A stretch of DNA of 64,000 nucleotides, taken from Hygrocybe punicea. Taxonomy: Eukaryota > Basidiomycota > Agaricomycetes > Agaricales > Hygrophoraceae. The DNA lies in contig OY744466.1 of NCBI GenBank assembly GCA_963556145.1, positions 2,480,001 through 2,544,000 on the forward strand. The letters are read 5' to 3'. The position numbers were made by a program, and so were the translations under genes. Under the pieces are notes generated by a model. The model made no database searches and was not told the DNA's origin. It was given only the letters and a program-made list of their open reading frames with translations. Positions 4,276 to 64,000 of this stretch are shown in pieces (within the stretch, counting starts at the first letter, position 1; each line of letters begins with the position of its first letter).

Positions 4276-4670
4276 TGTAGAGGGCAAGGTCCCTCTATAC
4301 ACGAAAACCCGACATATACGACACAACCCGAATCCGCACAAAGACCTATAACGAACCCAATCGAAATACGTTCCAAAATCCACCAAACCCGGATCCGGAT
4401 CCGATCCGTAACACAGGGCGGCGCTCAACCCGATTGTATACGTTCTCATCACGATGATCATCAACACCGGTTCACCCCTATACTACAGTTCCTATCACGT
4501 TTCGTAGAGACCCTGATCGGGTTGATATGTTTCAGTAGATTTGACGTTTACTGCCTCTTCTCCTAACTGGCCTGTGCAGAGCACCGCCTTGTTTAAGTAC
4601 TTTAAAATGTAGAGATAGTTGTACCAATAATACAAGTTGACTCTTCACCCCAAAACGCACAGAACCCTTT
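4276..4670. repeat. left part of old solo LTR (TGTAGAGG family), split by gypsy-1
   Basis: Begins TGTAGAGGGC at 4276. The right part is 11698-12007, ending CGTCACA. Together they make a 705-bp LTR flanked by a 4-bp duplication ACGT (4272-4275 and 12008-12011). The end sequence matches that of the gypsy-2 LTR (GCCGTCACA), and the start matches gypsy-2 and the solo LTRs at 12282 and 22732. Confidence 0.8.
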
Positions 4671-5226
4671 TGTCATATCCCATGCAGCTCCGCCGGATTC
4701 CGACGAACTCCGCTCCGGACTTTTCCGCCGACTTATCTTATCTTATCTTATCTTATCTTCTCGCGTACGTTATTGTTCTTCTCTTGTTAATTACTATTCT
4801 TCCCCATCTCCGTTTACTCCGACCTCCTTTTCTCTTCCTCCCCTTTGTTTACTTGTCACCGTACATAGCAACCTTTTATCCCTTTTATTTTCTTCCGAAC
4901 TCCGGTCCTCTTTCCGGAGTTCATATTGTCTTCACGTCTCCAAGGACATGACAATTAGTCTACCAAGTATATAAACTAGAACTACAATGTCCTGTAACTC
5001 CGTTCAGAAAATCAACTTGAGTTCCTTATTTCTTACCCACTCTCAAACTTAAGGCTTTCCCTTAAGCTCATTAGTTATCTTAATACTTAGTCCGGAACTC
5101 CGGACTAACTCCGCTCCGTCCACGTCTTCTCAATACGACTTAAGGAAGTAGTGAACCTACTTCAAGAGTTGACGTCTCCGCTCCTCCGAAGAACTCCGAT
5201 CCTTCCGGAGTTGCACGCCTCTAACA
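4671..5226 (+). repeat. gypsy-1 5' LTR (556 bp)
   Basis: Starts TGTCATATCC and ends CTCTAACA. It contains a short (TCTTA)n microsatellite, a TATA box (TATATAAA, 4969-4976) and the predicted R start at about 5003. It is the same length and sequence as 11137-11692. Confidence 0.96.
4969..5013 (+). promoter_or_regulatory. gypsy-1 LTR promoter: TATA box and predicted transcript start
   Basis: TATATAAA at 4969-4976 lies 34 nt upstream of GTTCAGAAAAT (5003-5013). That 11-mer is the exact reverse complement of the sequence just after the LTR (5229-5239), as expected if it forms the 5' end of the mRNA in Tf1-type self-priming. The start site itself is inferred. Confidence 0.7.
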
Positions 5227-5239: not shown

Positions 5240-5272
5240 AACTCTTGAGTCGTATTCCCTTTACATTTGATC

Positions 5273-6445
5273 ATGTCTTTCCAAGGCTTCTCCCAACGAA
5301 GAACCCCCACACGTTATCGACTTACACGACCGGCAAACACCTCATCCCAACGCCCAACGATAACCCCGGTCTCTCCGTTAGAAGAAACTCACACTCCGAG
5401 ACACGAACCGTTTCCGCGCCCAGTCTTCGAAGAGAACAATCCTCTCGGACCGGGCAATCCTAATCGCGATGATACCAACCTTGCTGAGGCCATCGCTCTT
5501 CTAGCCACTACTCTCCGAAACAAAGGAGACGACAAGCAACGCACCAAAGTCCGAGAACCGGACACGTTTGACGCCTCCGATCCGACAAAACTCCGCCCTT
5601 TCCTGGTTCAGTGTCAACTGAACTTCAATGATCGACCAACCGCTTTCCAAACGGACGGCGCCAAAGTCAACTTCGCCCTCTCCTACCTCAAAGGGATCGC
5701 ACTTGCGTGGTTCGAGCCTTACCTTTTGGAGAACCCAGATATCGATACCTATCCGCCGGACTTCATGTCCGATTACGGAGATTTCTGCACGGAGTTGCAG
5801 AATAATTTCGGACCTCTGGACCCTAAAGGTAGCGCCGAGAGCGAGTTGGAAAACCTTGTAATGAAGGATAACCAACGAATTGCGAAGTATATCGTCAACT
5901 TCAATCGTCTCGCTACGCAGACTGGCTGGGACATCGGTGCCTTACGGCATTCTTTTTACCGAGGACTTCCGGATCGCCTCAAAGATCAACTTGCCCAATC
6001 CGAGAAACCAAAGAACCTCTACGAGCTGAAGGATAAGGCTCAACTCCTTGACGCCCGGTATTGGGAACGGAAATCGGAGATTTCCCGCGCTTCGGGATCC
6101 TCTTCTGCTAAAGCCTCTACTTCCGAGGCCAAGTCTTCAACCGAAAAAGCTTCTGAGAAGAAGTCCCCTGCCAAAACTACCAACTCCGGTAGTACCTCCT
6201 CCACCACTCCGAAAACCCCTCCTGTCTACGCCGATAAGCTAGGCAAGGATGGTAAACTCAAGCCCGCGGAACGTCAACGCCGCATCGACAATAAACTCTG
6301 CATTATATGCGGAGGAGCCGGACACATGGCCAAGGATTGCACCAAGGCCAAATATTCGTCCACTCGCGTTGCCGCCCGCGCCGCCTCCACTTCCTCCGCA
6401 CCTCCGGTCTCTAGTTCCGATTCTCTAGAGGAGCCGGAAAAATAG
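5273..6445 (+). CDS. gag: gypsy-1 Gag polyprotein
   Basis: A 390-residue Gag. I chose the ATG at 5273 because the reading frame opens upstream without another ATG. The N-terminal 90 residues are Pro/Thr/Arg-rich. A retrotransposon gag fold follows (about residues 95-240, with the typical ...FCTELQNNFGPLDPKG... and LPDRLKDQL segments), then a Ser/Lys/Thr-rich linker. A CCHC zinc knuckle of form C-x2-C-x4-H-x4-C (CIICGGAGHMAKDC) is near residues 343-356. It ends ...EEPEK with TAG at 6443. The pol frame is -1 relative to gag and overlaps its last 31 nt. Gag packages the element RNA and forms the particle (known of the family). Confidence 0.93.
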   Translation: MSFQGFSQRRTPTRYRLTRPANTSSQRPTITPVSPLEETHTPRHEPFPRPVFEENNPLGPGNPNRDDTNLAEAIALLATTLRNKGDDKQRTKVREPDTFDASDPTKLRPFLVQCQLNFNDRPTAFQTDGAKVNFALSYLKGIALAWFEPYLLENPDIDTYPPDFMSDYGDFCTELQNNFGPLDPKGSAESELENLVMKDNQRIAKYIVNFNRLATQTGWDIGALRHSFYRGLPDRLKDQLAQSEKPKNLYELKDKAQLLDARYWERKSEISRASGSSSAKASTSEAKSSTEKASEKKSPAKTTNSGSTSSTTPKTPPVYADKLGKDGKLKPAERQRRIDNKLCIICGGAGHMAKDCTKAKYSSTRVAARAASTSSAPPVSSSDSLEEPEK

Positions 6446-9400
6446 AGAGCAGTCTGCATACTCCGGCACAGGATGTAGGCTGCGTTGAACCTGACTGTGC
6501 GCTACCGGAAGTAAAACTCAACGCGTCCGCTCTTTCTAACGATTCCTTGACGATTTCTCTTTATCATTCTACTACGCTTATCGTTACCCTTGTGGATTGT
6601 GGATCGACACATTGTTTCATTGACCCGGAATTTTGTTCCCTTCACAATCTTCCTATTTTTCCTACTGCTCCGAAACGCCTCCGCTTGTTTGATGGTTCCT
6701 CCGGTGGAATCATCGACAAATGTGTATCTATCTCTGTCCGTTTTTCTACTGGTGAAATTCTAATCTTAGAATTTTTGGTCACTCCGTTGGATCCGTCTGT
6801 TTCCGCAGTTCTTGGATATAGCTGGCTCGCCAAATACAATCCGTTGATTGACTGGGTCGAGCATAGCGTTAAATTCCGTTCTTCTGATTCCGCGCCTCCG
6901 TTGTCGACTCCGGTGCCTAGCGAGGCACCACTTCCGGACCCTCCAGTACGACCTCCGTCCCCTCCGTCCTCTCCGTCTACTCCGCCTGGACCTTCTTCAC
7001 CATCCGCCTCGAAGCCTGACATCTCCTTTGTCAGCGCTCAAGCCTTTTTGCGTGGTTGCAAAGTACCCGGCACTCAGGTCTTCCGTATGGAAGTCCGATT
7101 ACCTGACGCCACCGGTCGCTCTGCAAGCTACGGCCCTCCGGAGTCCTCCGAACCCTCCGTGGACCTTCACAATATCCCTGAAGAGTATCACGAATTCGCT
7201 GACGTCTTTAGCAAAACGAAGGCTTGGAACCTCCCTGAACACCGTCCTTACGACCTCAAAATTAATTTGGAGGATGGTGCAAAACCTCCTTTTGGCCCGA
7301 TTTACTCTATTTCACCCTTAGAGCTCGAGACCCTTCGGGAATTCCTTGACAAGAATCTCCGGGCGGGTTTCGTCCGCTCCTCCCGTTCTCCCTGCGGAGC
7401 TCCCATTCTTTTCTCTCGGAAGAAAAATGGAAGTCTTCGACTTTGCGTGGATTTCCGAGGACTCAATCGTATCACGAGGAAGGACCGCTATCCTATCCCT
7501 CTTACGGCGGACCTTCTCGACGCTCCCCGGACTGCGCGCATTTACACTAAAATCGACCTTAAACACGCCTACCATTTAGTCCGGATTGCCGAAGGTGATG
7601 AGTGGAAAACAGCTTTCCGCACTCGCTATGGCTCGTTTGAATGGTTGGTAATTCCGGAAGGTCTTACTAACGCCCCGGCGGCCTTCCAACACTTCGTCAA
7701 CGATATTTTTTCCGACCTCCTTGACGTCTCTGTCATTGTTTACCTTGACGACATCCTTATTTATTCCGATGACCCCGCTGATCATGTAGACCATGTCCGC
7801 GAAGTCCTCCGACGACTCCGGAAACACGGCCTCTATGCCAACGCCGAGAAGTGCTCTTTTGGCGTTGACACGGTGGAATACTTGGGTTACATTCTTTCCC
7901 CCCAAGGCCTTTCTATGGATCCTGCCAAGGTCCAAACTATCCAGGATTGGCCGGAACCCCGGAAGATCAAAGATGTTCAATCCTTCCTTGGATTCGCCAA
8001 TTTTTACCGGCGTTTCATTCCGGACTATTCCTCCATCACTATTCCACTTACCCGGCTCACTCGTAAAGGGTTACAATGGAATTTCGATGATAAGTGTCGT
8101 TCCGCCTTCAATGACTTGAAATCCGCTTTCATTTCCGCCCCAATCCTTTCCCATTGGTCACCCGAGTTTGACACTCTGGTGGAGACTGATGCTTCCGATT
8201 ACGCCGTTGCTTCCATTCTCTCCGTACGCCATCCTGACGGTGAAATTCATCCGGTTGCTTTCCGGTCTCGTACCCTTTCGGACTCGGAGTTGAACTACGA
8301 TACCCATGACAAGGAACTCCTTGCCATCTTCGACGCTTTCACTGCCTGGCGGCATTATTTGGAAGGTACTGCTACTCCGGTCGACGTTATCACCGATCAC
8401 AAAAATTTGGAGTACTTCTCCACCGTCCGCTTGCTTACCCGCCGTCAAGCCCGCTGGTCGGAGTTCCTTTCCCGCTTCAACTTTGTTATCCGCTTTCGCC
8501 CAGGCAAGCTTGGCACTAAGCCCGATACCCTTACTCGACGCTGGGACGTCTACGCTAAAGGGGGAGATAGCGACTACGCCAAAGCCAATCCTCACAATTT
8601 CCGCCCTGTTTTTGGGCCGGAACAATTGGCTTCGTCCCTCCGAGCGACTTCCCTCGAAGATGTAGTCCTTGGCGCCGGATTCACCATAGACGTCGATTCC
8701 CTTCACTCCGATATCATCTCCGGACTACAGGTTGATCCTATTGCCTCCGGACATGTTTCCCGTACCACCTCCGGCCCAGATCCTCGATGGTCTATCGACG
8801 ATTTAGGTTTTCTACGCCTTGATAATCGTATCTATGTCCCCGATGTCAATGACCTACGACTCCGGATTTTGCGTTCCAAACATGATCATCCTACTGCAGG
8901 ACACTTCGGGCAAAATAAGACTCTCGAAATCATCCGGCGGGAATACACCTGGCCCGGACTCCGGACTTTTGTCCGTGATTACTGCAAGTCTTGCACAACC
9001 TGCGCGAGATCCAAAACCCCTCGGCATCGTCCTTACGGATTGCTTAAGCAGCTCCCTATTCCGGAGAAACCATGGAATTCAATTTCCATGGATTTCATCG
9101 AACAACTTCCGGACTCCGAAGGATTTACGGCCATCCTAGTTGTGGTTGACCGTCTTTCCAAGCAAGGGATCTTTATTCCAACTTACGATACGATTACTTC
9201 CCCCCAACTCGCACATCTTTTCCTTATTCACGTTTTTTCTAAGCACGGAGTTCCTAGTCACGTCACCTCCGATAGAGGCACGGAATTTGTTTCCCATTTT
9301 TTCCGGTCTCTCGGAAAGGCCCTCGACATGAAACTCCACTTTACCTCCGGTTATCATCCTGAAGGCGATGGCCAAACGGAACGCGTCAATCAAACCCTTG

Positions 9401-10164
9401 AGCAATATCTCCGCGTTTATTGCAATTATCAGCAAGATAATTGGTCGTCCCTCCTTCCTCTTGCGGAATTTGCTTACAACAACGCTCCAAACACCACTAC
9501 CGGAGTTTCTCCTTTCTTTGCCAATAAAGGTTACCACCCTAACCTTTCCGTTCACCCGGAGCGCGACCTCTCCTCCGCCCACGCACGAAAATTCGCTGTG
9601 GACCTCGATGAGTTACATCAACAACTTCGACAAACCATCTCTGAGGCACAACAACGTTATCAACACTACGCGGACTTGAAGCGCGCTCCGCCTCCGAACT
9701 TCAAGGTTTCGGATTCCGTCTACGTCAAAGCTGAGCATTTCCGGACTACTAGACCCTCCAGGAAACTTTCTGAGAAGAACTTGGGGCCTTTTGAAGTTAT
9801 TGCTAAGGCCGGTACTCACTCATATACCCTCCGTCTTCCGGAGGCTCTCCGCTCTGTTCACCCGGTCTATCATGTCTCTCAGCTCGAACCGGCGACTCCG
9901 AATACCATTCCTAACCGTGTCCAACCTCTGCCTCCTCCGATCGTTGTCGACGGAGAACCGGAGTTTGAGATCTCCGAAATACTCGATTCCAAGATCGACA
10001 ACCGCCGTCGTGCTTGCAAGCTACTGTACCTTGTACGTTGGGAGGGCTACGAAGGCACTGACGAAGAAACTTCTTGGATCTTGGCCTCCGAACTTGGACA
10101 TGCTACTGAGCTTGTTTCGGACTTTCACTCCGCTTATCCTTTGAAACCGGGCCCGTCCTATTAA
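6415..10164 (+). CDS. pol: gypsy-1 Pol polyprotein (PR-RT-RNase H-IN-chromodomain)
   Basis: The frame is open from 6415 and there is no ATG near its start, so expression by -1 frameshift from gag is likely. Counting from 6547: retropepsin motif LVDCGST near residue 17 (Cys after the catalytic Asp is unusual); RT with YLDD at about 399; RNase H (ETDASDYA) near 547; integrase HHCC zinc domain at about 778-820; integrase D,D-35-E with MDFIEQLP (about 848), SDRGTEF (about 909) and GQTERVNQ (about 944); C-terminal chromodomain YLVRWEGYEG...ETSW at about 1160-1182. No frameshift or internal stop is seen, so it should be functional. The chromodomain is typical of chromoviruses and targets integration to marked chromatin in known members. 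Confidence 0.95.
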   Translation, partial: FRFSRGAGKIESSLHTPAQDVGCVEPDCALPEVKLNASALSNDSLTISLYHSTTLIVTLVDCGSTHCFIDPEFCSLHNLPIFPTAPKRLRLFDGSSGGIIDKCVSISVRFSTGEILILEFLVTPLDPSVSAVLGYSWLAKYNPLIDWVEHSVKFRSSDSAPPLSTPVPSEAPLPDPPVRPPSPPSSPSTPPGPSSPSASKPDISFVSAQAFLRGCKVPGTQVFRMEVRLPDATGRSASYGPPESSEPSVDLHNIPEEYHEFADVFSKTKAWNLPEHRPYDLKINLEDGAKPPFGPIYSISPLELETLREFLDKNLRAGFVRSSRSPCGAPILFSRKKNGSLRLCVDFRGLNRITRKDRYPIPLTADLLDAPRTARIYTKIDLKHAYHLVRIAEGDEWKTAFRTRYGSFEWLVIPEGLTNAPAAFQHFVNDIFSDLLDVSVIVYLDDILIYSDDPADHVDHVREVLRRLRKHGLYANAEKCSFGVDTVEYLGYILSPQGLSMDPAKVQTIQDWPEPRKIKDVQSFLGFANFYRRFIPDYSSITIPLTRLTRKGLQWNFDDKCRSAFNDLKSAFISAPILSHWSPEFDTLVETDASDYAVASILSVRHPDGEIHPVAFRSRTLSDSELNYDTHDKELLAIFDAFTAWRHYLEGTATPVDVITDHKNLEYFSTVRLLTRRQARWSEFLSRFNFVIRFRPGKLGTKPDTLTRRWDVYAKGGDSDYAKANPHNFRPVFGPEQLASSLRATSLEDVVLGAGFTIDVDSLHSDIISGLQVDPIASGHVSRTTSGPDPRWSIDDLGFLRLDNRIYVPDVNDLRLRILRSKHDHPTAGHFGQNKTLEIIRREYTWPGLRTFVRDYCKSCTTCARSKTPRHRPYGLLKQLPIPEKPWNSISMDFIEQLPDSEGFTAILVVVDRLSKQGIFIPTYDTITSPQLAHLFLIHVFSKHGVPSHVTSDRGTEFVSHFFRSLGKALDMKLHFTSGYHPEGDGQTERVNQTLEQYLRVYCNYQQDNWSSLLPLAEFAYNNAPNTTTGVSPFFANKGYHPNLSVHPERDLSSAHARKFAVDLDELHQQLRQTISEAQQRYQHYADLKRAPPPNFKVSDSVYVKAEHFRTTRPSRKLSEKNLGPFEVIAKAGTHSYTLRLPEALRSVHPVYHVSQLEPATPNTIPNRVQPLPPPIVVDGEPEFEISEILDSKIDNRRRACKLLYLVRWEGYEGTDEETSWILASELGHATELVSDFHSAYPLKPGPSY

Positions 10165-10174
10165 TTCTGTCTAT

Positions 10175-11014
10175 TTACGATTTTCGCGGACTAATTTCAA
10201 GGTTTCCTCCTTTCCCCAAAAAATCCCCCTCTTCCCACTCCGTTTCCGTCTCCTCCGGCGCGATGTCCTCGGACTCCGGAGTGTACTTCCGGAGCTCGTA
10301 TGAATTATCTCTGAGGAACTCTAAGTTCCTCAGATGGTCGGCCCATTGAACCGCATGTTCGCGGAGATCCTCCACGGTGTCCCATACCCCCTCGCATGCC
10401 TCCGCGACCCGTCCCAACATCGCCGTGTTTTCTTCTGTCGCCCGGAGCAGCTTGTGAAGAAGCTGCTCCGTCCTCGTCAGCGGTTTCTTTACCGCGGGCT
10501 CCACTCCGCGGTACTCCGATCCGGATTCCTCCTTTTCCTCCTTTTTCTTTTTCTTCTTCACTCCACCCTCTTCACCATCTACCTCGCATCGCGCTTTTCT
10601 CTTCTTGCATGCATCGCAACTCCGCGTCTTTCCGGACGCGGGCCACACGCAGTTTTCCCGGCGTTCCGCGCACGCCTTGCATTGTACGGCCCTGCTTCTG
10701 TAGTCAACTCCGGTCTTTCATTTATGTGCCTTTGCTTACCCGTCTCTTTTTCTCTTCCCCTTCTCCGCACTTGAGGGCCCCTCCTCCGCCGCCTCCACTT
10801 TCTTTTTCTCCTCCTCCGCCGCCGTTTTCTTCTTCATTTCCTCCTCCACCCTTTTCATCGCCTCCGCCTGGATCTTCTGTCTCCTCTCCTCTTCCGCCTT
10901 CTTCCTCTCGTCCTCCGCTTTTCTCCGTTCTTCTGCCTCCTCTTTCGCCCTCATTTCGGCGAATTCGCGCTCCATCTCCTTGATGCGCGCGGCTATCTCT
11001 TGTGAGGACGACAT
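10175..11014 (-). CDS. antisense gene in gypsy-1: coiled-coil Zn(II)2Cys6-like protein
   Basis: It lies on the opposite strand to gag/pol, ten bases past the pol stop. Exon 1 is 11014-10740 (ATG at 11014). The intron is 10739-10698 (42 nt, GTAAGC donor, TTGAC before a CAG acceptor). Exon 2 is 10697-10175. The predicted protein has about 265 residues: residues 1-92 are a Glu/Lys/Ala-rich coiled coil; the splice joins frames so that CKACAERRENC and, ten residues later, CDACKKRKARC follow, matching C-x2-C-x6-C-x10-C-x2-C-x6-C, the fungal binuclear zinc cluster pattern. A Lys-rich stretch, a second helical segment and an acidic tail follow. No cDNA evidence is available. Its function is unknown; DNA binding is inferred from the cluster. 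Confidence 0.75.
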
Positions 11015-11123
11015 TTTTTGGATTGTCTCCTGGCCAGGAGTTTGTTTTATACCGTAGGCCCTCCGCTTTGAACTCCGCTGCGGTTCTCCCTTTGTTCCAC
11101 AGGCGTCTCAAGGGTTCGACGCT

Positions 11124-11133
11124 AAGGGGGAGA
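11124..11133 (+). other. gypsy-1 polypurine tract
   Basis: AAGGGGGAGA sits three bases before the 3' LTR, the usual position for plus-strand priming. Confidence 0.85.
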
Positions 11134-11136
11134 TAC

Positions 11137-11692
11137 TGTCATATCCCATGCAGCTCCGCCGGATTCCGACGAACTCCGCTCCGGACTTTTCCGCCGACTT
11201 ATCTTATCTTATCTTATCTTATCTTCTCGCGTACGTTATTGTTCTTCTCTTGTTAATTACTATTCTTCCCCATCTCCGTTTACTCCGACCTCCTTTTCTC
11301 TTCCTCCCCTTTGTTTACTTGTCACCGTACATAGCAACCTTTTATCCCTTTTATTTTCTTCCGAACTCCGGTCCTCTTTCCGGAGTTCATATTGTCTTCA
11401 CGTCTCCAAGGACATGACAATTAGTCTACCAAGTATATAAACTAGAACTACAATGTCCTGTAACTCCGTTCAGAAAATCAACTTGAGTTCCTTATTTCTT
11501 ACCCACTCTCAAACTTAAGGCTTTCCCTTAAGCTCATTAGTTATCTTAATACTTAGTCCGGAACTCCGGACTAACTCCGCTCCGTCCACGTCTTCTCAAT
11601 ACGACTTAAGGAAGTAGTGAACCTACTTCAAGAGTTGACGTCTCCGCTCCTCCGAAGAACTCCGATCCTTCCGGAGTTGCACGCCTCTAACA
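11137..11692 (+). repeat. gypsy-1 3' LTR (556 bp)
   Basis: Same sequence and length as 4671-5226. It is followed by the target duplication CCTTT (11693-11697). Confidence 0.96.
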
Positions 11693-11697
11693 CCTTT

Positions 11698-24075: not shown

Positions 24076-26641
<2,566 letters not shown>

Positions 26642-33575: not shown

Positions 33576-34935
33576 ATGCCGGACATGCCGGACATTGCTG
33601 ACAAACTCCGTTTCCTTCCTGAGCTGCGTGCATACTATCCGTTATCATTTCATCGTTGCCTCAGCGCAATGGCTGACTCTGATTCCGATTCTGATTCTGA
33701 CGTCTTTGGCATTGGTATTGACGATCTGGCCATTGTTGGTCTTTTTGGCTTTCTTTGTCGTACTGCTGTGGCCTGGGCTGAGACTTACTACGACAAAATT
33801 CCTCATCACAATTCTGCATTCTCTGGAGTTGCGTGGGTCAATGAACTCATGATGGGGCACCCTGATCGCATCAAAATCGCTCTTGGAGTACATCTCCGGG
33901 TGTTCCAAGCCCTTCTTAAAACACTACGCAAGATGGGCTATAAGGATATGAAACACGTCACCCTACCCGAGCAGCTTGCGATCTTCCTTCATGCATGCGT
34001 CACCGGTAACACAATTCGACAACTTAGTGAGCGGTTCCAACATGCCAATGGTACCATATCCAAGTCAGTTCCCCCATCCCCATTAATTTCAAGTTTAATG
34101 ACCACCTTACCACAGCTGCTTCCGCAGGATGCTTCTCGCCTTTTCATCCTCACCGTTCTATACGAAATATGTCACTCTTCCAAAGCGCGGTGATCCCACT
34201 GCCCCTGAAATATCCAGCAATCCAAAATTTTTCCCGTACTTCACTGACGTGTTGGGTGCCGTCGATGGCACTCACATCAATTGCGTCCCACCCAAAGCTG
34301 ATCGAGCTGCATCCCGTAATCGCAAAGGGTTCTTGTCCCAGAACTGCCTGATGGCATGTTCGTTCGACATGCGATTTGTTTATGTTCTCAGTGGATGGGA
34401 TGGGTCAGTAGCTGATGCCGCAATCTACAATGACGCTCGCCGCCACGACTTCCGAATCCCCCCCGGCAAGTACTACCTCGCTGATGCGGGTTTCGCACTT
34501 ACACAACAACTCTTGATTCCCTATCGCGGCCAACGTTATCATCTTGACGAATGGCGACGCGGAGATCGAGCACCGATGAATAAAGAAGAATTATTTAATC
34601 TTCGTCATTCGTCTGCTCGAAATGTGGTGGAACGAATATTCGGTGTCCTAAAACGTCGTTTCCGGCTCCTCCTCCTACCCCCTGAATATAGCCTGAAGGT
34701 GCAAGCTCGCATTCCACCAGCCCTCTGCGCCCTCCATAATTTCATCCGCCGATACGACCCCACTGATGCAGAGGACTATAATGATGACCAGGACATACTC
34801 CCTCCCCACGTCGATCCAGATGTCTTTGGAATGCTTTCGGATGGATTGCCGAGCCGTGCATCTCGCGAAGCGGCATCTGACATGCGAGATGTTATGGCAG
34901 AAAAGATGTGGTTGGATTACAACCAATTCCTTTAA
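33576..34935 (+). CDS. Harbinger DDE transposase
   Basis: Two exons, 33576-34063 and 34128-34935, with a 64-nt intron (GTCAGT donor, CCGCAG acceptor) that joins ...NGTIS-K-MLLAFSSSPFYTKYV in frame; 431 residues. The ATG at 33576 lies inside the terminal repeat. A second possible start is the MADSDSDSD methionine at 33669. The N-terminal half has a helix-turn-helix-like region (TLPEQLAIFLHACVTGNTIRQLSERF). The catalytic domain (DDE_Tnp_4/HARBI1 type) shows AVDGTHI, LADAGF and VVERIFGVLKRRF for the D, D and E. It cuts and rejoins element ends, and known family members need the Myb-like partner. Confidence 0.95.
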
Positions 34936-46689: not shown

Positions 46690-47850
46690 AGTCTAGTAAT
46701 GATGTCAGTACCCCCCGCAACCCGTTTCCATCGACAATGAGGGGTCGGGAGGTCTCAGAACCTGACATTCCCACCTTGTGCCCAAACAACACCCCCCACT
46801 TTTCAACAACCAGGACGCCCTGTTCCTCCCACTGTTTACCAGCCCCAGTCGCTATGAACCCCCTGCAGCTTGTATGAGATAAAAAGGAGGATACGGGGGC
46901 TCCCAGTCCCACCCATTTTCGCCCAGTGCCCAAGCACCACCCCCCGACTGTTTTACACCCAGGACACGTCACCCCACACTGTTTTCGACCAGCCCCAGCT
47001 CGTATACACCCCCTGCACCTCATTCGCATAGAAAACGAGATGGTGGGAGGTCCCAGTCCCCCCCCGTTTCTGCCCAGTGCCCAAGTACCACCCCCCGAAC
47101 ATTTTTATACCCGGGACATGCCACCGCATGCTGGTTTTGACCAGCCCCAGCTAGTCTACGCCCCCCACACCTTGTTCATGTTGAAAACAAGACGTCGAGG
47201 GCCCTGGAACCATCACCTCGCCGCCCTGATGTCCAACCCACCCCACCCCCAGTTTTTCAACATCCACTGCACCCCCTTCCCACCCGTTTTTGACCACCCC
47301 CAACTCGAATAGACCCTCCACGCCTCATTCATGTTGGAAGCGAGACGTCAGGGGCCCTAGAACTGTCGGCTTGCCACCCTGTGTCTAAACCCACCCTCCA
47401 CTGTTTCAACCCGCAAACCACGCCTTCCCTGCCCGTTTTTGACTGCCCCCAACTCGACTAGACCTCCCGCACCTCATCCGCGTTGAAAACATGATGTCGA
47501 GGGCCCTAGAACTGTTGCCACACCGGCCTATGTCCAACTCACCCACCCCCATTTTTTCAACATCCACGGCACCCCCTCCCCACCTGTTTTTGACCACCCC
47601 TACTCGAATGACCCCCCCGTGTCTCATTCGCATTGAAAATGAGACATTAGGGGCCCCAGAACTGTCGCCTCACCACCCTGTGTCCAAATCCCACCCCCAC
47701 TTTTTCAACCCGCAAGCCACGCCTTCCCCGCACACTCCCGCCACAACCACCAGCACCGCCTGTTTCCGCTCATCAGGCCACCCCACCCTGCTGGTTTTAC
47801 ACCACCACCAGCTTATTCATACCCCCCGACCTCTCGTTCACAATACATGC
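46690..47850. repeat. satellite block B, about 7 units of roughly 150 bp
   Basis: The phrase GTTTTTGACCACCCCCAACTCGAA and variants recur near 46840, 46980, 47132, 47288, 47437, 47586 and 47785 (spacing about 140-200). Between them are CATTCGCATTGAAAACGAGA-type and CCCACCCCCACTTTTTCAAC-type blocks. It is C-rich on this strand. A related array in inverted orientation is at 54290-55050. ORFs here are by-products. Confidence 0.85.
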
Positions 47851-48109
47851 TAGTGGAAACCATTTTTTAGCATTTAGAACCAACATTAAATTTGAATTTA
47901 ATTAATAATTAATAATTTGATGATAATAATGATAATATTGCTAGATATGTCCATGTTTGGATGTGAAAGTGATAAGCGAGAGATCGCCTCAATGCCCAAG
48001 GCGATTTTGCTAGTCACTTTCTGCTTATTCAGCAGTTGGCAACATCAATAGCCCCACCACAACACACTTCAGTGCTCACGACATGGTGAGAGTTTCACTT
48101 GTTTAAATG

Positions 48110-49560
48110 TACATAGTGCTGATGGCAGACAGTGAATTGAGTCCGGCACCCCATTTGCAACCAAGAGCATGGGGCTGGGTAAGGAGAATAGCTGCGTATG
48201 GAATTGGTGAGCTGAGGATTTTTTTCTTGTTTACTTTGCCCGGATACAACTCACATAGGTTCACACAGGCCTGACCGATTCTGACCCCGTGTTTCCGACC
48301 GAAACGATGAGTTTGGGCGAGGGGATCGGCCGTGCACGCAATCTGTGAGTTGCCCCCCCCCTTGAAAATCTTTTTGTTCACCTTCGCTCGGATACAACAG
48401 ACTCAGGTTCACATGAGCATTCATCCATTCCAGCACCCTGTTTTCGACCGAAACGATCAGTTTGGGCGAGGGGATCAGCTGTACATGCAATCCGTGAGTT
48501 GCTCCCCCCTCTTGAAATGTTTTTTGTTTACCTTTGCTTGGACACCGCAGACTCAGGTTCAAATGGGCCCTCATCGATTCTGGCACCCCGTTTCTGACTG
48601 CAAGATAAGATTGGGCGAGGGGAACATCCGCACACGGAATCAGTGAGTTGACCCCCCCCTGTTGATTTTTTTGGTTCACGTTCACCCAATACCACTGAAT
48701 GTGTTCACTCAGGCCCTCATCCATTCCGGCACCCCGTTTCCAACCGAAACGATCAGTTTGGGCGAGGGGATCGGCCGCACACACAATCCGTGAGTTGCCC
48801 CCCCCTCTTGAAATGTTTTTTGTTTACCTTTGCTCGGACACCGCAGACTCAGGTTCAAACGGGCCCTCATCGATTCCGGCACCCCGTTTCCGACTGCAAG
48901 ATAAGATTGGGCCAGGGGATCGGCTGCACACGCATTCTGTGAGTTGCCCCCCCACTTAAAATGTTTTTGTTCACCTTCGCTCGGATACCCCAGACTCAGG
49001 TTCACATGGGCCCTCATCCATTCTGGCACCCCATTGCCCACTGAAACGATGAGTTTGGGCAAGGGGAATGGCTGCGTAAGGAATGGGTGAGTTGCCCCCT
49101 CCTTGACTTTTTTTCTTGTTGCCGTTGCCTGGATACAACTCACGTAGATTCGGACAGGGCGCAAATGATCTCGGCACTCAGTTTCCACCCACAATGATGA
49201 GTTTGGGTGAGGGGAATGTCTGCACATGCATTCCGTGAGTTGCCCCCCCCCCTTGGTTTTTCTTGTGTTCACCTTCACCTGGATACCATTGACGTGGGTT
49301 CACACAGGCCCCAATCACTCCCGGCACCCCATTTCCGACCAAAACAATGAGTTTGGGTGAGGGGAACAGCCGCATGCGCAATCCATGAGTCGCAGTCTTG
49401 ATATTTTTGTGTTCACCTTTGCCTGGATAATGCTGCTTTATGTTCACAAAGGCTATGATCAATTCCGGCACCCCATTTCCGATCCAAACGACACGATTGG
49501 GCCAGTGGGACGCCTGTGCAGGGAATCATTGGGTTTCCACCCACAGTTGTTTTTTGTTTC
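48110..49560. repeat. satellite block A, about 10 units of roughly 150 bp
   Basis: GGCACCCCGTTTCCGACC and variants recur at about 48148, 48275, 48430, 48583, 48728, 48880, 49026, 49173, 49321 and 49468, each followed by GATCAGTTTGGGCGAGGGGA and a GTGAGTTGCCCCCCC run. The usual spacing of 145-153 bp keeps one minus-strand frame open over several units (48251-48784 and 48709-49278). Confidence 0.88.
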
Positions 49561-59920: not shown

Positions 59921-62900
59921 AACTTGTTTAGTGGGCCAGTGCTGCGCATGGCATGAATGAGTTCTTTTTTCCCCCTCCTCACTTCTTTATTGAATTAAGC
60001 AATAAGATGAAATTGCATAAAGCATATTACATATGGCATCAGATACATAGCATGTGTTGCATATTGCATATTATTCTAATAAGCCCACCTCCCACCTCTG
60101 CAACATATAAATTAATATAAAATAAAACTACATAAAGTGTCTTGAGTCTTCATCAACCTTCTCTCTCCCTGCCATCTCCCCTGTGTTGCATCATCATGCA
60201 ACACTCTCAGCCATGAAGCAATTGCTCAGGGAGCAACAGGTCAACTGCCAAACACAACTGCCCCCCAAACAGTGTGCTGACAATTAACTCACATTTGCTC
60301 AACCCTACTTCTCCATGACCTTGAATGCTACACAACAGATGAACACATGAAGACAGCCATGCTTGACCTCAAGGAGGATGCTCAAAGACTCTGAGCATAA
60401 ATAACTAGTACAAGGTTTCTATTTTTACAGTGTCTGATATCATGGTCTGAAAGTAGTGTAAGGTCAGTGTCTCTGGAACAAGAGTTGCCTGTAATCATTC
60501 CATCATGATACCATACTCATTTCTGTGCAGTAATAATGCGTGATGTGAAATGATATTGACCATGATATACAATGCCTCTAAGTTCTAATGTCTTTGTGCC
60601 AGTCTCTGAAACAAATTCCAGTCTATGACTGGTTTTAATATTTTTGAATGGATACTCTAGAATAAGAATATGTGGTGCTTCATTATAAAATACAAGTTGT
60701 TTCATTCTGCTGTTGCAATCAGGACATCTTCGATTGGTTTTATGTGACAAGGTATCAATCCAATTCATGGTAGACTGTTTAATGGTGTCATCAGCATGTA
60801 ACACATAGCCTAGTCTGTCATCAATGGGTTCTTCTGCAAAGTCACATTGAAAACATTCATGTTGAGAAGAGGCTACAATGTCATTGACTTTAAACAACTC
60901 CATAGCCAGATTGGCAACACTGATGCCCACAGTGCCTCTAGGAAAGTCTGTAGGATTCATGTTATGCAGTGTAGTCCTAAGATGATCTCTTAGTTGTTCA
61001 AATGTTACATTTTTGTGCAACACCTTGGAAAAACCATGAGACAATGTGGTCAAATGATCATTCATGCTTCTGAATACTGTAGACCACTCTGTATGATTGT
61101 CTTTCCACAGATTAAACATAATCACCAACAATGAGTCATATGCACAGCTGTAGTCATTTCTATCCCAGATCAGTCCCACTGGAGAGTTGATGACCTGTTG
61201 CTTGCTTGTTGATCCTTTGTTGACATGGTCTTTGGTGATCCGAGGCCTTTTAGCTACTGGTTCATTGTTTGTGTCAAGTGAATGTTTGTGGGTGGAAGCA
61301 ATAGCAACTGAACCTTTTGCTGGAACAAATGAAGTTGCAACTACAGCTGCTTTCTGTTTGCCTTTGCATTTTTCAACCAATTGCCATGGGCTGTCAGGGA
61401 TTCTATGAGCCAATAGTAGTGGATCAGTTGGTGACCATTTAATAGCAGTATCAGTTTTGGCAGGAACATAGTGAATTCCCTTCCACTGCTGAAAGTTTCG
61501 AAGCATAACTGAGCGTGTACCAGCATCAATGTGATCAGGTAAAGTGCCTTCATATCTAATCCTTGTAATCTCATCAAGCAATTCTAGTTCTCTAAATTCT
61601 TGTCTAAGATATCCAGAACAACCTCTAGTGATCACTTTAGTGTCAAAGCCTTGAATTATTACAGTTCCAGCAGCAGAAGCACTTCTAGACAATGAAGAAT
61701 AATATGACATGTGGTTGAAGCAACTGTTTAAATGCACAACATTGAATGGACGTGTTTTTCCTTGAGCAGCATGAGCAGTCATTGCAAAGTTAGGTAGCAC
61801 CCAAACTTGTTGTCTCTCAATGGATTCCTTCAGGTCACTGGGAAACACACACTGAATTGTCTTGGTGTTTTTTACAATGGGCACTATATTGTCTGGAAGT
61901 CCTGGAATCTGCACCAGCTTTGGAGGTTTGTCCAGTTCAACAAACAAGGTGTCAAGTACTCTTTTGCCATGACTTGCTTTCATTGACTGCCAGCCAACAA
62001 CAAATCCCTCTTGTCCTTTTGTAATGCAGAGTTCAGTGGCATCATTGTTGCGAAGCATCACAGGCATACCAAGACACAATGAGAGTTTCCCAGCAAAGTT
62101 ATCAGTGGCAGCATGTCACACTTTCCATATCTCTCTTTGTGTATCAAAATCTATATCACTGGATTGATGTACTGCTTTAGATTTGGACTGTGACTTGTTT
62201 CTCACACTAGACTCCTTGTCCTTTCCTGTCAATGGAATAGAAGTTAGTCAAGTTTTGATTGGTATCTGAAGCAAATCTTTCACATCCAAGAAGATTGATT
62301 TGATCCTTCTGTGAGTGAATGCCACATATGATAGGAACATTTCTAAAAGTTTTGGAGGCAATGTTGGGCTGGTCTGGTCGTTTGCCTGCAATTCTGGTTC
62401 TCAAAAATTGAATGTCCTGTGCAGTACACTTGCCATAGCGCATGTTGACAAGGGCAGTTCTCAACAATGCATCCTCAGTTGTTTGTGTCTTCTGTCTCAT
62501 GTTTTCTCTAAGAATCACCACTGTGGTCACTTGATGCCAGAGTGCTTTTCCAATGGCAGTTTCCTGAGAGTGTGTTGTCAAAGCTGATGTGATCTGAGTG
62601 CCAACTGTGCCACTGTACAATGGTGCACCTCCAACCGGTGGTAACTGTGCAAAGTCTCCAGCAAATATCATGTTGATTCCACCAAATTGCATGTCATGTA
62701 TGTTCAAAGCTTTTGCTAGTCTAGCACTGATTTTGTAGAGATCATGACAAGACAACATTGAGACTTCATCAATGAAAATGTAGTCAACTCCTTCTAGTCT
62801 ACCTTTGAGCTGAGCAATGCCCATTGCTTCATTTCTATTTGACATGTTTGGATTGATGCCCAGGAAGTAGTGATAAGTAGAACCATTTTGCAGAGCTGCA

Positions 62901-64000
62901 GATGTACCAGTGGGACCAAGAATAACAAATCTGTGGGACTCATGTGCAGTATCAAAGAAATGAACAACTGCTTTGATGACTTGTGATTTTCCAGTGCCAG
63001 CCATTCCAGCAATATTCATTTTCAACTGGTCACTAATGAGAGATGAAGCATGATTTGCAATGATTCTAAAGGCTCTTTTCTGCTCAGTGTTCAAGCTGAA
63101 TTTTCTAACTGTAGCATCAATTAGCTGTTGTCTCTGTGCATTTTCAGCTGTGAAAGTTTGCATCAAGTATGATTGGTCCACAATCATCACCTCATTTTCA
63201 TTTGGATCAGTGTATGTTTTATGTGAAATAGACTTTGAGTTAGCAGGAATGTGTTGATTGCGCACATCTAGTATTTCTTGCCTCTGTTCTTGAACAAGTT
63301 GTTTCCATTGAGTACCAGGTTGATTCATTTCAACTTCAAGTGGAGCAGAAATTACTGTAATTGAACCATCTGGACATGGATCAAGCCAACCAATGTTTCT
63401 GACAATGTTTTCAGTGGCATCCATTTGAGCTTTGATCAGTCTACCATGTTGACCAAGTTCAGAATATTTGTTAGTGCCATAATCTGCATTGTTTTTGTCC
63501 TGCTCATAATTATCATCTCCAAAGTTGCCATCATTTTGAATGTTGTCATCATCCAAGTGTGAAATCATGTCTGAAGTCATAAATTGAGGACAAGTGCCAT
63601 CTAACACTGCTCCTTGTCTAAGCTGAGCAGAATAGTCATCTCTAGCATCAAGGCATTCATATCTCAGATTAAAGTTGTCCATGACATCTAATTGTCTATT
63701 AGTGAATTCATGATCAGTGAATGCTTCATCCCATGATTCCAGTTCACTTTTCAGGTCATGACCAGATCTCCATGGTTTGAATAGAGTGAGCATTGTGATG
63801 CAATAGTATTCTCTGTCTCCTCTATCACCTCTGGGCAATGAACCACCAACAAAGTTTGGAACAACATGCTTCTTCTTTTCACTGAATTCTATACAGTGTG
63901 TTTCATATAATGGGTGATCTTCTAGGAAAAGCTTGGTATCTTCTTGGACAGACTCAGTGCTATCAGACTCATTTTCCTCTGAATCACATTCTATGAAAGT
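59921..64000 (-). mobile_element. Helitron, 3' part; continues beyond the window
   Basis: The minus-strand element ends at about 59921. Its end shows the hairpin GCCATGC-GCA-GCACTGGC (59935-59952) followed by CCACTAAACAAGTT, shared with the terminus at 53883. The encoded protein (60517-64000) is a Helitron PIF1-type helicase with the usual upstream Helitron motif PRGDRGDREYYCITMLTLFKPWRSG. The Rep (HUH) nuclease should lie past 64000. Confidence 0.82.
60517..63838 (-). pseudogene. Helitron PIF1-like helicase with C-terminal USP-like protease domain
   Basis: Upstream piece (63838-62207): Walker A GMAGTGKSQVIKA, Walker B YIFIDEVSML, GDFAQLPPVGGAP and the arginine motif ILRENMRQK, all helicase motifs. 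Downstream piece (62079-60517): PGLPDNIVPIVKN, MTAHAAQGKT, YSSLSRSASAAGTVII, then from about residue 300 a domain with NDYSCAYDSLLVIMFNLW (Cys box), two CxxC pairs (CFQC, CPDC) and GIVYHGQYHFTSRI (His box), like a ubiquitin-specific protease. Between the pieces lie a one-base frame change near 62210 and a TGA (WKV-stop-HAATDNF), probably CGA to TGA. So this copy is recently inactivated. The frame is open upstream to the window edge in pieces. Confidence 0.85.

Follow-up and report, generated by a model that had tools for sequence, protein, structure and literature searches.

A conserved antisense gene for a putative zinc-cluster protein in a CGGAG-rich chromovirus of Hygrocybe punicea

How retroelements distinguish their own DNA from that of the host and evade silencing is an open problem, and it is raised by a locus of Hygrocybe punicea at which a long terminal repeat (LTR) retrotransposon carries a gene with an intron on its antisense strand. 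The locus lies in a stretch of 64,000 nucleotides (GenBank assembly GCA_963556145.1, contig OY744466.1, positions 2,480,001 to 2,544,000), hereafter called the window, whose coordinates are used throughout. A preliminary description of the window had proposed that this gene encodes a Zn(II)2Cys6-like regulator. The interpretation towards which we lean is that the protein reads the short motif CGGAG, which is dense in the LTR, the promoter of the gene itself and the coding regions of the element. Such binding would set the transcription or the chromatin state of the element itself, the protein acting as an activator or anti-silencing factor and not as a host regulator.

The element has the features of a Ty3/gypsy chromovirus. 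Its two LTRs (5' LTR, 4671..5226; 3' LTR, 11137..11692; both +) have 556 bp each, start with TGT and end with ACA, are 100% identical and are flanked on their outer sides by the 5-bp target duplication CCTTT (4666-4670 and 11693-11697). Between them lie a gag frame (5249..6445 from stop to stop, +), encoding capsid and zinc knuckle, with Pfam matches on 5306-6445 to Retrotrans_gag (2.1e-11) and zf-CCHC, and pol (6415..10164, +), encoding protease, reverse transcriptase (RT), RNase H (RH), integrase (IN) and chromodomain (Pfam RVT_1, RT_RNaseH, Integrase_H2C2, rve and Chromo). The domains follow the order RT-RH-IN and the chromodomain is C-terminal, with 25.4 bits against a Pfam cut-off of 25.1. 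A polypurine tract, AAGGGGGAGA, was read from the sequence before the 3' LTR (11124..11133, +). The insertion is recent, as the identity of its LTRs indicates.

The antisense gene sits between the pol stop and the 3' LTR, and has its own TATA box, ATG and intron. Exon 1 (11014-10740, −) starts with the ATG and encodes a single long charged helix (residues 3-77; mean predicted local distance difference test score, pLDDT, of 86.7 by AlphaFold without alignment) followed by a KRKR basic run, and exon 2 (10175..10691, −) is convergent with pol, the two stops being 10 bp apart. As had been described, the two open reading frames (ORFs) are joined in frame by a GT-AG intron, which links the N-terminal charged helix to the cysteine motifs. 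The intron first proposed, of 42 nt and ending at 10698, leaves 798 nt in frame and 265 aa; however, the acceptor common to the two families of copies described below is the next AG (...CAG/GGCC), 6 nt further on. Both acceptors keep the frame, and since the second is kept in both families, the true intron most likely has 48 nt (10692..10739, −; GTAAGC...AAGCAG) and the protein 263 aa. The two C-x2-C-x6-C motifs ten residues apart are indeed read in the translation, but they lie wholly within exon 2 and are not completed by splicing, as had been thought. The window copy lacks 15 nt just after the ATG, in frame, and most sister copies have 268 aa and the N-terminus MSSSQLSSSQE. The gene is presumably transcribed and spliced. 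Its intron may outlast reverse transcription, since it would be an intron on the antisense strand only and the genomic RNA has sense polarity.

When the whole genome (42 contigs, 92.2 Mb) was searched, at least 162 matches to the gene were obtained, many genes giving two or more. From the matches listed, 78 places were picked, leaving out overlapping matches and those to exon 1 only; 47 of them show 90-98% identity, four are partial at 88-94% and 27 show 37-70%. The copies thereby sort into two families, a young one (A, at least 47 places) and an old, decayed one (B, about 26 places), and L057, one of the 27 most divergent places, is a frame-shifted copy of young type. At 69 of the 78 places the gene is convergent with a pol match (61 within 62 nt) and at none is it in another orientation, so that it travels with the element; at the other nine, pol had no match within 3 kb. 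A spliced frame that starts with ATG and has at least 261 aa is present in 28 of the 30 top copies L001-L030, the window copy included, and one B copy (L051) is entirely open once spliced. Family B differs from A by many C-to-T and G-to-A type changes. In the B copies among L031-L060 the decay fits CpG loss, seen for instance as stops and as changes of R to W or Q, and this is what methylated DNA or a process like repeat-induced point mutation would produce.

The conservation of the gene was followed in an alignment of the window copy with 59 further rows of this genome, in which 6 of the 60 rows are duplicate views and coverage differs among rows. Exon 2 of the window against 18 B matches gave a median nonsynonymous to synonymous rate ratio (dN/dS) of 0.148 (14 computable), or 0.114 with CpG-type changes masked (16 computable), and exon 1 (19 rows, L057 being A-type) gave 0.111 (6 computable) and 0.096 (7 computable), respectively; values are missing because dS is often saturated. 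The corresponding figures for the pol C-terminus were 0.097 and 0.054 (15 rows, including a short edge match of family A). Six diverged rows of family A, two of which come from one locus, gave 0.27-0.90, as drift after insertion would give. When 15 older copies were compared with the window, 5 of 2265 codons of the gene frame had a stop in one sequence or the other, against 44-135 in each of the other five frames, and pN/pS was 0.28 in the gene frame against 0.42-1.41 in the others. The intron is covered by 16 of the 19 B rows, and of these 15 have the GTAAG donor and 15 the CAG acceptor. Its length is 48 nt in family A, except for 51 in L057, whereas 12 of the 16 B copies have 50 nt, and since this shift is not a multiple of three and the spliced frame remains intact, splicing appears to be in use. 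These comparisons indicate that the gene is under purifying selection between families. The preliminary description had named absence of conservation among related elements as one half of what would speak against its reading; instead, two diverged families both retain the gene with its start, TATA box, intron and cysteines.

Zn2Cys6 proteins read CGG triplets, and in this element such triplets are followed by AG far more often than the one in sixteen expected by chance: the share is 52% for the LTR, 38% for the post-pol region, 26% for pol and 21% for gag, compared with 6% for the window outside the element and 7-8% for pieces from two other chromovirus groups of the genome, C and D. The 7022-nt element holds 115 CGGAG/CTCCG sites, 92 of them as CTCCG on the sense strand. 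Each LTR has 15 sites, against 1.5 in dinucleotide shuffles. Under synonymous-codon shuffles, pol has 51 sites against 22.6 (reached in 0 of 500), gag 13 against 6.6 (4 of 500) and the antisense gene 18 against 10.1 (1 of 500). No 5-mer of pol is more enriched than CGGAG, which is raised about 2.2-fold in both orientations; in gag it is enriched, yet not first. A second-order Markov model gave 1.7-2.3 for the regions of the element and 0.80-0.93 for the flanks. The sites show no single dominant spacing, and they are no more evenly spread than random.

The motif is also traceable in the older family. The top 5-mers of the decayed B pol (7731 nt, nine pieces from six loci) are CAGAG, CCAGA and TGGAG/CTCCA, the CpG-decay products of CGGAG and CCGGA; the unrelated GAAAG/CTTTC comes next, with z of 5.2 against 6.0-6.6 for the top ones. 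Between A and B the motif was retained in 137 comparisons out of 175, which ranks it sixth among 51 CpG 5-mers (median 0.54), although the B copies are interrelated and the comparisons not independent. By codon phase, retention was 0.67, 0.67, 0.80, 0.94 and 0.87 for CGGAG against 0.63, 0.34, 0.47, 0.54 and 0.56 for other CpG 5-mers. Pieces of older-family LTRs can be aligned with the LTR region of the young family, at about 77-80% where the matches are longer, and by eye many of the common places hold CGGAG or a decay form of it.

The antisense gene was not found in groups C (L061-L063) and D (L064-L067) by filtered tblastn, by an exon-2 profile, which finds three of three control copies, or by the six-cysteine pattern. 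The pol of one gene-less group D element has 6 sites where 4.5 are expected, that is, no enrichment in this one control pol, and six post-pol pieces of groups C and D have a CGGAG density of 2.2-3.2 per kb. One short motif is accordingly enriched in its own element over others, the control being one gene-less pol. The abundance of CGGAG both in the LTR and in the body of the element supports, independently though indirectly, the earlier proposal that the regulator might act on its LTR. In all three post-pol pieces L064, L065 and L066 of group D there is a similar frame of 276-289 aa on the sense strand, at about 570-1510, which may be another accessory gene; 255 residues of the L066 frame gave no Pfam match at 0.01.

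The region upstream of the gene has features of its own. A TATA box (TATAAA, 11046..11051, −) stands 37 nt upstream of the ATG, a place where 40 of the 41 A rows and 16 of the 19 B rows have it. Between it and the ATG lies the palindrome CTCCTGGCCAGGAG (11027..11040, −), which is free of mismatches in 40 of the 41 young rows and in 11 of the 19 older ones, the older family having a one-base spacer, CTCCTGG(A)CCAGGAG. Just upstream of the TATA box are two direct CGGAG sites 12 bp apart (11061..11077, −). Given this placement of TATA box, palindrome and sites, it is likely that the promoter lies between the LTR and the gene.

The protein is probably nuclear and DNA-binding. Its cysteine domain (10586..10681, −) reads CX2CX6C-X10-CX2CX6C, within the Zn2Cys6 consensus CX2CX6C-X5-12-CX2CX6-8C, and five of the cysteines are invariant, the sixth being present in 9 of 10 aligned rows. 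The AlphaFold model of the domain shows the Zn2Cys6 arrangement, with two short helices, each following a CXXC, placed as in Gal4, and lies at 1.9 A from GAL4 over 36 residues. Positions 1-15 of the Pfam profile Zn_clus map to the second half of the domain, which cut out alone scores 18 bits. The domain is thus apparently a Gal4-like Zn2Cys6 cluster with its half-clusters in swapped order. As in Gal4-type factors, cluster, linker and helix follow one another; the long predicted helix (exon-2 residues 73-134; 10289..10474, −; pLDDT block means 87-97, the last block 65) is a possible dimerisation coil, and the conserved acidic and aromatic tail seen in the alignment (10211..10288, −) resembles, by eye, an activation domain. 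Whether queried with the full protein or with the 10-row alignment, protein searches yielded one identical match, P0001 (165 aa, 69% identical, source lgn). Neither exon 2 nor the pol C-terminus found a relative in scans of viral contigs, and a PDB sequence search gave three weak matches, with E of 0.12 or worse.

A parallel for a protein paired with such a motif is VANC of the Arabidopsis VANDAL elements, described in PMC5735166 as an element-encoded anti-silencing protein whose own element holds a short motif at high density and uniformly oriented. Here too an encoded protein is found together with a dense, mostly same-oriented motif of its own element. The VANC21 motifs of those passages are mainly non-coding and often in tandem repeats, whereas here pol and gag are filled too, and binding is proven for VANC while here we infer it (PMC5735166). 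In its fullest form, which we put forward tentatively and at rather less than even chance, our interpretation would be of a complete self-recognition circuit: a half-swapped Gal4-like protein made from an antisense gene with its own promoter, and an entire element, coding regions included, selected for dense CGGAG, so that the chromatin opened or driven would be its own and hardly any other. VANDAL elements are DNA transposons, and no VANC-like system is known to us from an LTR element, nor any LTR element whose sites are written into pol. The sign of the regulatory effect is a guess; activation or anti-silencing is favoured because the sites fill the body of the element and the tail is acidic and aromatic.

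Some features set the protein apart from standard Zn2Cys6 factors. In the profile search suggested in the preliminary description the whole protein scores 11.8 bits with Zn_clus (PF00172), below the cut-off of 21, and its assignment to the Zn(II)2Cys6 consensus stands by cysteine spacing and predicted fold and not by profile score or order of halves. In Zn2Cys6 clusters the basic DNA-contact half comes before the other; here it apparently comes second, and unlike Gal4-type factors the protein is encoded on the antisense strand of a retroelement. The CGGAG sites are biased by 92 to 23 between strands, and CGGAC and CGGAA are mildly enriched as well. These last two points fit the strongest rival, that the gene is real and serves another step, such as integration targeting or RNA binding, while CGGAG is a target of some host factor or has its role in the RNA. 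We consider this unlikely: in pol both orientations are raised about 2.2-fold over synonymous shuffles, which suits double-stranded DNA, and CGG triplets are what Zn2Cys6 clusters recognise.

It is also improbable, in our judgement, that the protein is a repressor of sense transcription bound to the LTR, limiting copy number or damage to the host. The model for such restraint is HBZ of human T-cell leukemia virus type 1, in the available passages of PMC10186651 a nuclear bZIP protein that lowers 5' LTR output and is made from spliced transcripts of an antisense gene on the 3' LTR side. Our element has the same layout, with an antisense gene for a predicted DNA-binding-type factor beside the 3' LTR (PMC10186651), and it has CGGAG sites in the LTR and in the antisense promoter. 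However, HBZ belongs, in the same passages, to a retrovirus and has its promoter in the 3' LTR, whereas here a predicted zinc cluster is encoded by an LTR retrotransposon with the TATA box between LTR and ATG; the motif is enriched in pol and gag too, beyond the needs of LTR repression, and the acidic tail is, by eye, activation-domain-like.

Far less probable is a fragment of a host transcription factor passively carried by the element. Gal4-like domains are typical of fungal host regulators, but both families have the gene, with purifying selection, TATA box and intron, and no separate host gene was seen, though the nine pol-less places among the 78 were not looked at singly. A chance open frame in a pyrimidine-rich region, suggested by the low complexity of exon 1 and by further long frames in the region, is scarcely credible beside conserved splice sites, selection and stops missing specifically in the gene frame.

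A conserved antisense ORF between pol and the 3' LTR places the gene with accessory genes of the Retand and HBZ kind. The plant Gypsy elements Retand, Grande and RIRE2 have, according to the available text of PMC11963269, antisense ORFs in this position, that of Retand with a TRP28 domain. Position, orientation, conservation across Retand families, a predicted DNA-binding protein and a suggested regulatory role are shared with our gene; unlike it, Retand belongs to a non-chromovirus plant lineage and has TRP28 where a zinc cluster is predicted here (PMC11963269). Neither "zinc" nor "intron" appears as a word in the main text of that paper, and its available passages hold no matched motif array (PMC11963269). 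By analogy, then, the layout would resemble HBZ and Retand, and the motif logic VANC. Openly licensed literature listings gave no recognisable fungal case of an antisense zinc-cluster gene, and a keyword check of fungal surveys, as far as their main text was available, found neither "antisense" nor "zinc".

Elsewhere in the window there are a PIF1-like helicase frame, Helitron-like in appearance (62210-64000, −), beside a 532-aa frame (60520-62115) with no Pfam match at 0.01; a DDE_Tnp_4 transposase frame (34102-34932, +); a piece of an Hsp70 gene, likely of the host (25154-25765, −); and arrays of diverged direct repeats, about 67-76% alike (46778-49560).

A candidate protein, its candidate sites, and both a young high-copy and an old decayed family occur here in one genome, so that the question of how a retroelement tells its own DNA from that of the host might be reduced to the study of one purified domain. 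The antisense placement of the gene would offer a route by which an intron can persist in a retroelement. In addition, the locus offers a natural zinc cluster whose halves are apparently swapped.
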